A DNA stretch of 64,000 nucleotides from Globodera rostochiensis (lineage: Eukaryota > Nematoda > Chromadorea > Rhabditida > Heteroderidae). The first letter of the stretch is position 1; each line of letters begins with the position of its first letter. The notes beneath the pieces were generated by a model, which saw only the letters and a list, made by a program, of their open reading frames with translations, had not been told where the DNA came from and searched no databases. The stretch covers positions 517,985-581,984 of the forward strand of contig JAEVLN010000003.1 in assembly GCA_018350325.1 (NCBI GenBank), read 5' to 3'. The translations under genes and the position numbers were made by a program. Of the stretch, positions 59,713 to 64,000 are shown piece by piece.

Positions 59713-60542
59713 ATAGCCAATTTTGTTTGTTGTAAGTGCCATCCAAATTCGGGCTCGGGCCGGGTCCGGTCTCTAGAAATGACTGAGACGGATTGCGTCT
59801 CTATTTTCTGTTTGTTTTTTGTTCGGTGGTGTCTTTTATGCTTTTGGTTTTGTCGGTCAGTTGTTTAGAACTTTGTGACTACCTATTTTTTAATTTGCAT
59901 TGTTTTGCTTCTCTCTTACTGGGTATTTTGATGAGCTTTTCAAAGACAAAAACGCATCCCTATGCTTTTTATATCCTTTTCTTTCGAAATATTGGGTTTT
60001 GACGCACCGATCAGGATGAATGAACTTTTTACTCCAAACTAAGGTGTTGGGGGACCTGTCCCCCGACATTTTTTGGGTTACCCCGGACCCCCAAACACGA
60101 ACAGTCCGGAGCGCAATTTGCTCCCCACACAATTTGCTTCTACTGATCGAGCATCTTTCAAATAACCCGAAAAACACTTTTTGGTGCGCCCCAATTTTTC
60201 TGTACCGACCATATTCTTATTCATCAGCCGTTTTTTTGTTATAGGAATCTTATAAATATGAGAACTTTGAATGATTGATGATGCGGATGACACAAAATGT
60301 ATAAATAAATTAAGTGAAAAATGTCAAGGATGGAGAATACACCCGTGCAGGGCTTAAAGTAAATTCCTGAGCATGAATTGGAAATTTGTCGTCAGCACAC
60401 CATCCATTATTTTTGGAGTCCATCCGTTCAATCATTTTGGGTAAAATTTTTCGCCCGATTCCATTTTGGCTAAAAAATTTGGTTTAAATTTTTTACGATG
60501 CTATTTTTAAATTATTTTGCTGGTTTTGTCTTCAACACTCAC

Positions 60543-63500
60543 CGAGCAACAGATGGCAAGGCTTGAAACTCCTCTTCCGTGTAATTGCTTCCGTAGCGTC
60601 TCATATCCTTCACCAACTTTTCCGCTCCGTACAGGTCCACAAATCGGAACGGACCACCCCAAAAAGGCGGGAAGCCGAGACCGAACACACTCGCCAGATC
60701 GCCCTCCGCCTTAAATTTATTCATTATTCGTACACAAAAAAAAACGGGGCAAATGGAAATTGGCATTATAGTAAATGGAGGGGGTGAATAAATTTCCAAA
60801 ATCACTTATAATAATCTTTATTTATTTTTAATACAAAATATTTTGTGTTCCCCACCGGCGATGAAATGATGCCGCCTTCTTCCAAACAGATCAGTGCCTC
60901 GTTGACAAACCGCGACACCACACGCATTTGCTGGTCTTGGACGGAGGAAACGCTCGCCGGTGGGTTTAGCTGATTGCGTGCCAAAATTTCCTGGACCTTC
61001 GGGTTTTGCACTCTTTTTGATTTCTTGTACGTGTAAATGCCTGGAGCAAGAAAGAACAAAATGATAATTTTAATAAAAATCCCAATTTTTTTGTTCGCAC
61101 ACCTCGCCCGGACTCCTTGCCCTTGAAACCAGCGCTGGTCAGTTCGGCGAGTTCAGAAGGGCTTCCTCGAACTGACTTGTCCAAAAATGCCCCGACGTCG
61201 AATTCAACCTTAAAATTTATTTATAGGGGAAGAGGCCAGAAAAATGCAGTGCCTCATCGGCCAGGGTCGCCATGCCGACAAGGAAACCGAATTCAGTTGT
61301 GATTTTGTCGACTTGACGTGGCGATACACCCTCTTGCAGCAGACGGACCATTTCTTTAAGTATTACGCCACGGCAGCGAACCACGAAGTTGCTTTCGTCC
61401 ATGGGCAAAAACTTTTGAGGGCAAGAACAGCAAATATTTAAACTAATTCCAATTAAAATTAGGAGATTGAGACAAAATTTGGAAGTCGAGAATGTTGAAT
61501 CAAACTCAAGACTAATCAACAAATAAATTTTTCGAGTTTTGAATGTGCCAAATCAACTCCCGTACCGTTTTAATGCCCTTGTCAATGCTGACGTTCGCAA
61601 TGCCAGAGCCCACCAGATCCGCGCCAATGACTTTGTGCGCCGTGCCGTTTTTGTCGTCCTTGCACTTTGTTTGACCTGAAGCAACAGCATACGGAAAAAA
61701 ATCCAAACAAAAAAAAGGCTTAGATATTACGGATGCAATCGCTTACGGTACCTTTGAACAGGCCGATTAGCGCCTCCGATTCCTTTGTTTGCGTGAGGTT
61801 GCCAAATTGCTGAAAACAGGTGTAGAATTTTTGTTGCTTTGTGTGGAATACAACATTTAAAATTATTGTAACTTCAATATGTTATTTTTGCCCAATTCCC
61901 ACAATATATCATCACAAATGTTTTCCCTCTAAAAACCCTTCTGTTCCCTCTGTTGCATTGGAATTGTCCCATTCACACAAATCTGCTCTTTTGACATCAC
62001 CCTCCCGACTCCAAACCTCTCTGCTGTACTGCCCATACTAAATCCGTTCTTCACAATACAAACCAATTTGTGCCTAATCCCGCCCAGTCCAAACCCAACC
62101 ATTCCCGTATTTAAGCGTTGGACCATCCCCAACGCATCAACCCTCGCCCAAAATCTGCAGAAATTAAAAATTCCAAAAAAATGTACCCTTCCCCCTCCTA
62201 CCTTCGTCTCCTCTTCGTACCCCTTTTCCAGTCCATCCACCAGTCCGGTGTGGACCACGTCCAGAATACGCAACGGCGCAGGGTATTTGCCGTCCGTCTG
62301 CCCCATCACCTTGGACCGTGCCTTCCCCATCATCACCTGCGATTAAGAATTATGGGGTTTTCCGGTGCCAGTTTGCCAAAATTAAAGAGTTTAAGCACTG
62401 AATATTTTTGGCGTCAAAAAGTTGGTAACATTTTAAACAACGACAAAAGCAATAAAAATGTTTATTTTGTTTGGTTGAACTTTTTTCCGTTTGCGAAAAG
62501 AAAGGTGGAGGGAGGGGGTAACTTTTTAGTGTTTGTTGTGCGCAACACACCTTGCGAAGCAGCGGCGTTTTCTGCGTCCGTTCCAGCAGCGGCCGCTTGC
62601 GGTCCACCTTCAGCGTGCCGGCAGCAAGCTGAGCGCATGTCAAAACGGCAACCTCAAAGAAAAATGGGGTTTGTCCACCACCAACCAGTTCACACCCTTT
62701 CCAAAGAGCGATGCGTCATGTCCAGACCAAGTCCCGATGGCTTAAAATTGAGTATGAAATATTCAACACGCTTAAAAATTGCACAAATGTTGGCATTGAA
62801 ACTCACTTGAACGAGCTGGTCAACTAAGCCCATGGTCTTTGCCGTGTCCGGTCCAATGATTTTGCCTAAAAATTTGTTTTGGACAAAAAAAATCAAGCTG
62901 ATGACATTTACTTACCCGTCAGCATCATGTCGAGCGCGCTTTGCAGTGCGATGAGTTTGGGCAGACGTTGGGTCCCGCCACCGAACGGCAACAAGCCGAG
63001 CATCACTTCCGGCAGAGCAAACTGCGTCATCGACGAGTTGACCGCAATGCGGTAATGACACGCCAGTGCCATCTCCAGCCCGCCGCCCATGCACGAGCCA
63101 GAAATGGCGGCAACGATCTAAACTTTTTGACCAAATCTAATCAGGTTTGATCAGCAGAATCAAATTAAAATGCAATCCGCAACAAAACAAATTATCCAAA
63201 TTCAATAATGTTTTCCTCTAAAATCACCTTATCCAATCGATAGGTTAAAACTTTTTTATTGTTCTAAATTTGGTGCCTAAAAAAACTCGCCGGCTTTTTG
63301 CTGCACTCCATACGATCAAAGTGGGCTTTCACATTGCGCGAGATGCTCGCCGCTGCTTCGGCCGTGTCGCAACGCGACAGCATGCCAATGTCCGCTCCCA
63401 CCAGATAACTCTGCGAAACGTGAAACAATATGCAAAAAAAAGCATGTTTTGTGGCAAGCATATAAAGAAATGCATAATGCTTTTAAAAATAGAAGTTTAA

Positions 63501-64000
63501 ACAAAATTTGTTTTTCGGCTTTTTGTACATACGTTCGGCTTGCCAGACATCAGCACAATGCCGCGCACCGACGGGTTCTGTTCGATGGCATCAAACTCTT
63601 TGCGGAGGGCCTCTGACACGGCATCGTTGAGCGAGTTTTCCTAGATTTGAATTTCAACATTTTTTTCCGAATTTTACAGGCAATATTTAATCGAAATCAT
63701 TTAACGAATTGGGTCCAATGCCCACCTTCACGTTGGGCATATCAATTTTAATCACTGCAATGCCTTTACTCTTTATTGCACAGGTAACCATGCCTGAATT
63801 AAAAATTTATGACACGGAAGTGGTTGACAAACCCGATATTAATATCACATCAAAACGCCGTAAAAAAACTTACTGTACGTGCCTTTGCCCTGCTTATGCT
63901 GTGCCACATGCGGTGTCTCTTTTACCGACTGATGATGCTTCACCTCTTGCACCACGGACACTTCCAGACGAATGCCATCTTCGTTCACTTGTTCTGTTGA
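60543..64000 (-). CDS. HADHA: Mitochondrial trifunctional enzyme alpha (HADHA)-like, dehydrogenase core missing; 5' end outside window
   Basis: Exons: 64000-63874, 63793-63726, 63640-63533, 63410-63291, 63117-62916, 62865-62807, 62628-62551, 62336-62202, 61809-61752, 61675-61566, 61411-61253, 61208-61103, 61040-60856, 60709-60543. All phases join. HADHA performs enoyl-CoA hydratase and 3-hydroxyacyl-CoA dehydrogenase steps of long-chain beta-oxidation. The hydratase part is intact: VGADIGML oxyanion loop, [10 protein letters not shown] and LPEVMLG with both catalytic Glu, GGGTQRLPK. After [19 protein letters not shown] (Rossmann GxGxxG with one Gly now Asp) the protein jumps to [19 protein letters not shown]. 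About 155 residues of the NAD domain, including catalytic His, are absent. The C-terminal [25 protein letters not shown] block ([11 protein letters not shown]) is kept. The last exon is probably near 60.44-60.48 kb (GEKFYPK), in an unresolved phase. Two introns are GC-AG. Confidence 0.88.

Follow-up and report, generated by a model that had tools for sequence, protein, structure and literature searches.

HADHA, the alpha subunit of the mitochondrial trifunctional enzyme, combines a crotonase-type hydratase domain, a linker, and the NAD-binding and C-terminal domains of 3-hydroxyacyl-CoA dehydrogenase. The role of the pair of glutamates in its hydratase site is known from crotonases. Here we describe a HADHA paralogue of the potato cyst nematode Globodera rostochiensis. 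It lies on the minus strand of the window, the 64,000-nucleotide stretch analysed (contig C23, JAEVLN010000003.1, positions 517985-581984); genome searches covered the 92.6-Mb assembly of 80 contigs. Judged from the sequence, the dehydrogenase of this copy is dead, which leaves a hydratase as the most that its product could be. An intact HADHA gene is present on another contig, C67, and thus the window gene is an extra, divergent paralogue. It is an eroding copy in one genome and not a redesign of the trifunctional enzyme of the species.

Loss of the dehydrogenase core

The window gene runs from 63794 to 60543 in 14 exons, which join in frame into 540 residues with no stop codon. The database gene prediction P0001 (839 aa), whose residue numbers are used below, is identical to it across all these residues, and hence uses the same junctions, both GC donors included. 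P0001 contains the Pfam domains ECH_1 (PF00378, E 2.9e-37) and 3HCDH, the C-terminal domain (PF00725, E 2.9e-16). The 3HCDH_N domain (PF02737) was not found in it at E up to 0.01, whereas P0004, the product of the intact paralogue, matches at E 1.5e-54. The six-frame genome search with 3HCDH_N produced eight matches, on C38, C67 and C6, and none at the window locus. However, the search with 3HCDH (three matches) missed this locus too, so the six-frame miss alone proves little. The C38 and C6 matches, by frame reading only, resemble single-domain HADH genes and not HADHA. Against TIGR02441, the HADHA equivalog family, P0001 scores 621.8 bits, under the cut-off of 964.65, compared with 1007.2 for P0004 and 1077.9 for P0002.

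A first-pass annotation made from the letters of the window had proposed that about 155 residues are missing at once between the exons 61675-61566 and 61411-61253. The exon borders, the intervening 154-bp intron and the matching phases are as described there, and P0001 uses the same junctions. The core is indeed gone, but alignment to the intact C67 gene sets the loss at 151 residues in two pieces, 113 and 38. The first deletion removed three C67 exons (132, 93 and 114 nt; 113 codons) with breakpoints inside two introns, and the exons for these residues are absent between the two C67-like halves of a hybrid intron (61412-61565). The first 91 bases of this intron (61565-61475) match the 5' end of C67 intron 11, and 61456-61412, together with the start of the next exon, match the 3' end of C67 intron 14 (alignment scores 97 and 44, versus maxima of 29 and 27 across 500 shuffles). 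Both introns bordering the deletion have phase 0, and thus the reading frame holds. Concealed exons in the 154-bp intron, which the first-pass annotation had considered too short for the missing segment, were rejected because both its ends match C67 introns.

The second deletion extends from after FSPVDKMQ in one exon to before FVVRC in the following exon and took 38 codons and an intron. The resulting fusion exon (61253-61411) was thought to resume beyond the missing segment. It does not start directly at the C-terminal domain but begins with FLPMDESN, the remnant corresponding to C67 FSPVDKMQ, joined in frame to FVVRC. A mutated acceptor before 61411 was rejected, as the C67 alignment shows a conserved acceptor and the exon remnant.

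The five codons TERMA directly before the NAD loop were also lost, as was the intron before the loop; the exon 61566-61675 equals two C67 exons minus the intervening intron and 15 coding nucleotides. Near its end it encodes the degenerate loop GADLVGSG. At the three altered positions all 33 of 33 aligned relatives carry G, M and A, in agreement with the first reading of this loop, and GADLVG departs from the GxGxxG pattern. The stretches with MHY and LLEII, which we take to carry the catalytic His and Glu of the dehydrogenase, are absent from the window copy in the alignment to C67. As had been suggested, very little of the NAD-binding domain is left, and the lost segment includes both of these presumed catalytic residues.

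The intact paralogue and the age of the duplication

The intact second HADHA gene, which the first-pass annotation had proposed to search for, was found on C67, and loss of HADHA from the species was therefore rejected. Its product is P0004 (A0A914H7H5_GLORO). When the genome was searched with the window protein, 22 exon matches were obtained, of which 13 are at the window locus, eight on C67 and one, a weak match, on C37. The joined C67 exons, read by eye, agree with P0004 except for one stretch without a counterpart there, and leader residues 30-85 of P0004 match C67 DNA at 100%. The P0004 model skips an open C67 exon (L014:5216-5015, minus strand), probably a gene-model error.

A maximum likelihood tree of ten proteins places the window copy beside C67 and G. 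pallida (ultrafast bootstrap 76; 86 for the node of C67 and G. pallida). The branch of the window copy is 0.31 long, compared with about 0.03 on the C67 side. In the approximately unbiased (AU) test of placements, a duplication before the Meloidogyne split was rejected (p 0.0007), and the window copy as sister to C67 alone was rejected more weakly (0.030). Placements outside Heterodera and Globodera (0.25) and beside G. pallida (0.20) were retained. We place the duplication in the cyst-nematode lineage, after the Meloidogyne split, and probably at or before the split of G. rostochiensis and G. pallida.

Selection, splicing and rival explanations

The pairwise comparison with C67 over 539 codons gives dS 0.37 and dN 0.15. 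With the frameshifted tail excluded, the two copies differ at 127 residues. A neutral walk to 116 differences creates a mean of 5.0 stop codons, and 0.3% of runs are free of them; the window copy has none. Eight of nine small coding indels keep the frame. Eight of the nine come from the exon alignments (-12, -15, -12, -12, -3, -15, +3 and +1), and the ninth is the loss of the TERMA codons. Some gaps were not counted because they are misalignments or end effects of the exon alignment: 169 and 3 in exon 10, 208 and 1 in exon 11 (the large deletions there are real), and -3/+3 at the borders of the last stretch.

Conserved columns, defined as invariant in eight other sequences, are changed in 28 of 195 cases, compared with 99 of 332 variable columns. 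They are spared in the hydratase (5/58 versus 31/127, p 0.015), the linker (6/38 versus 33/90, p 0.021) and the C-terminal domain (9/80 versus 34/104, p 0.0007). No sparing was seen in the NAD remnant (8/19 versus 1/11, p 0.10). As a control, C67 is changed at 0/58, 0/38 and 1/80 of the invariant columns of the three spared regions, and C. elegans at 19/77 in the hydratase. The 5/58 of the window copy is within the range obtained when the other genes are left out in turn, 0/49 to 19/77. Invariant columns are changed more often in the NAD remnant than elsewhere (8/19 versus 20/176, Fisher 0.0017). However, without the five columns at the deletion junction the count is 3/14 (p 0.38), and therefore stronger decay of the remnant is not claimed. 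Given the lack of stops in 540 codons, the in-frame indels and the spared columns, the copy was probably translated under weak selection through much of its history.

Synonymous differences from C67 are fewer in the hydratase and linker (approximately 63791-61630, 54/227 sites) than in the C-terminal part (approximately 61390-60543, 58/141; Fisher 0.0007). Past gene conversion is a possible cause.

The hydratase site had been called intact. Both catalytic glutamates, E359 and E381, are indeed retained, as is D311. However, three residues near the site are changed: F306Y and A308V in columns that are F and A, respectively, in 33/33 relatives, and G389F in a column that is G in 29 and A in three of 32. 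The present-day copy is possibly a working hydratase.

All exons are on the minus strand. The first HADHA-homologous exon (63726-63791) has the same phase as in C67, and no leader exons were detected upstream of it. A search of the 5.6 kb preceding the window copy (L015) did not reveal the leader exons of P0004, which in C67 lie within about 0.9 kb upstream. Hydratase exon 2 (63533-63640) is identical to C67 at 96 of 108 nucleotides. Exon 3 (63291-63410) encodes YLVGADI (FVAGADI in C67) and has a GC donor where C67 has GT. Exon 4 (62916-63117) encodes the glutamate pair and has PFGGGTQ instead of PGAGGTQ, and exon 5 spans 62807-62865. Of the linker exons, 62696-62740 has a 12-nt in-frame deletion and 62551-62652 is 15 nt shorter than its C67 counterpart with the frame kept; the other two are 62202-62336 and 61752-61809. 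In the dehydrogenase C-terminal domain, exon 61103-61208 has three in-frame gaps with 27 nt lost in total, exon 60856-61040 has changes of -15 and +3 nt, and the last in-frame homologous exon is 60543-60709.

The two GC donors are GCGAGT at 63290 and GCACTG at 61252, at the end of the fusion exon (GAG/GCACTG). In PMC4901422, about 3.5% of splice sites in both Globodera genomes are given as non-canonical, with the donor consensus CAGG[T/C]AAGT, and GC/AG introns as common; the donor at 63290 is near this consensus. Two of 26 splice dinucleotides are changed, versus neutral expectations of 4.9 (p 0.10) or 7.2 (p 0.013) at two neutral distances, and their retention is only suggestive of selection.

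On the N-terminal side P0001 has about 246 extra residues from coiled-coil exons upstream of the HADHA-homologous part. For the 204-residue coiled-coil part, no relative was found in the database at E 0.001, and thus the fusion may be an error of the gene model. The DNA that holds the first of these exons (L015:6781-8261) resembles a stretch of C6 (L023:3483-4730) at about 74-80%, and hence these first exons are themselves part of a duplication. Past the end of the window on C23 (L015:8286-9066), a short open reading frame encodes a FLYWCH zinc finger (PF04500, E 8.5e-11) and is flanked by inverted arrays whose 14-nt unit is CGTTTGCGTCTGGC-like, with arms of at most 113 nt that are 91% complementary. 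Together they look like a small mobile element.

The explanation that we favour, and consider somewhat probable, is that the window gene is a HADHA paralogue under strongly relaxed selection and at a late stage of erosion, its dehydrogenase dead and its hydratase possibly alive. HADHA would have been duplicated in the cyst-nematode lineage, the duplicate being without a mitochondrial leader and positioned behind unrelated coiled-coil exons. The dehydrogenase core would then have been lost stepwise, by a deletion that ran from one intron into another and took three exons, and by the in-frame fusion of two more, while the copy was presumably translated under weak purifying selection. The copy may still yield a protein in which the crotonase domain and the C-terminal scaffold are folded and the remnant of the NAD domain is disordered. 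Outside the mitochondrial complex, this protein could act as an enoyl-CoA hydratase or bind the substrate without turnover. A stronger version, in which stepwise in-frame removal of the Rossmann domain, with no mitochondrial leader, gave rise to an expressed cytosolic hydratase-plus-scaffold protein with the C-terminal domain kept for structure, is rather doubtful.

Several observations weigh against the favoured explanation. Variable columns are changed at a near-neutral rate (99/332, compared with 107 in a neutral run), and the bootstrap range of the linker pairwise dN/dS, 0.44-1.23, includes 1. Thus selection is weak at best. Polarised by G. pallida, 116 residue differences fall on the window side, five on the C67 side and six are unresolved; with H. 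trifolii the counts are 99, 11 and 17. A neutral stretch of d = 0.05 leaves no stop in 7% of runs. A shift of +1 nt near the end of exon 60709-60543 has replaced the family C-terminus of P0001 with an unrelated tail. The donor at 61252 is far from the consensus in PMC4901422, and if left unspliced would read into a stop. AlphaFold predicts a folded hydratase domain, but its confidence follows the aligned homologues and is no proof of a protein. Finally, no counterpart was found in other species in two protein searches, which cover proteins only, so that a missing match does not mean absence of the gene. In the first (7989 candidates scored, 5269 passed), 119/119 other proteins among the matches listed carry PF02737. 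In the second (102 proteins) P0153, P0207 and P0169 were inspected. The Heterodera trifolii fragments P0153 and P0207 resemble the intact gene. P0169 from Myotis (328 aa) has the hydratase and C-terminal domains without PF02737; however, much of its hydratase and linker is missing as well, and it was therefore read as a gene-model gap and rejected as a counterpart. Among the literature titles found, none deals with a dehydrogenase-less HADHA paralogue.

The alternatives partly overlap with the favoured explanation (the plain pseudogene) or lie inside it (the active hydratase), and their probabilities are not meant to add up to one. It is quite conceivable, if short of an even chance, that the gene is a plain pseudogene, a once-working paralogue that acquired the deletions, the frameshift and the leader loss after its function had ended. 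The C-terminal frameshift, the weak GC donor, the leader not found upstream, the near-neutral variable columns, the long window branch and the existence of an intact paralogue all fit this account. However, about five stops would then be expected, eight of nine small indels would not be expected in frame, and the conserved columns of the C-terminal domain would not be spared. Recent death following a long relaxed phase is compatible with these data, given the 7% of stop-free runs. An active hydratase-only enzyme in a new cellular place, with no leader and possibly a coiled-coil N-terminal fusion, seems unlikely. The retained glutamates and D311, the ordinary number of invariant-column changes in the hydratase, the predicted fold and the in-frame splicing of coiled-coil exons in P0001 are consistent with it, but the three substitutions at fixed or nearly fixed positions and the doubtful fusion are not. 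An assembly artefact that dropped exons, or a collapse, named earlier as a possible refutation, is very improbable. The missing piece is intron-bounded, as a mis-join could be, but both halves of the hybrid intron have diverged from C67 and thus do not derive from a mis-join with it; separate in-frame deletions, an exon fusion and an intron loss occur alongside, and there is no N in 60300-64000.

Comparison with known enzymes

The first-pass annotation interpreted the locus as a hydratase-only protein with a new architecture. As it held, the deletion lies in the genome itself and keeps the frame, but it could not take account of the intact C67 HADHA, the leader exons not found within 5.6 kb and the frame-shifted C-terminal end. 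The dehydrogenase-less architecture would count as new only if the copy is expressed; public RNA sequencing accessions for life stages of G. rostochiensis (PRJEB12075, PRJNA274143) are named in PMC8359618. If expressed, it would be a channelling multi-domain enzyme that sheds a catalytic domain exon by exon while the reading frame survives. If not, it would clearly illustrate how a duplicate decays once selection is relaxed, and would warn that a protein can match the trifunctional-enzyme family strongly and yet be missing a catalytic domain.

Compared with the C67 HADHA, the window copy is a paralogous locus with 75% identical residues over aligned codons and several alike introns; unlike it, the C67 gene has the leader exons, every dehydrogenase exon and the native end. 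With HADHA in general (TIGR02441; human 5zqz, 6dv2) the window copy has in common the crotonase domain with both catalytic glutamates, the linker and the dehydrogenase C-terminal domain, whereas it is without the NAD-binding domain, the dehydrogenase His and Glu and the native C-terminus, and its leader was not found. With monofunctional crotonases (ECHS1, 1dub) it would share the single hydratase reaction. Unlike them, it derives from HADHA and retains the linker and the dehydrogenase C-terminal domain.
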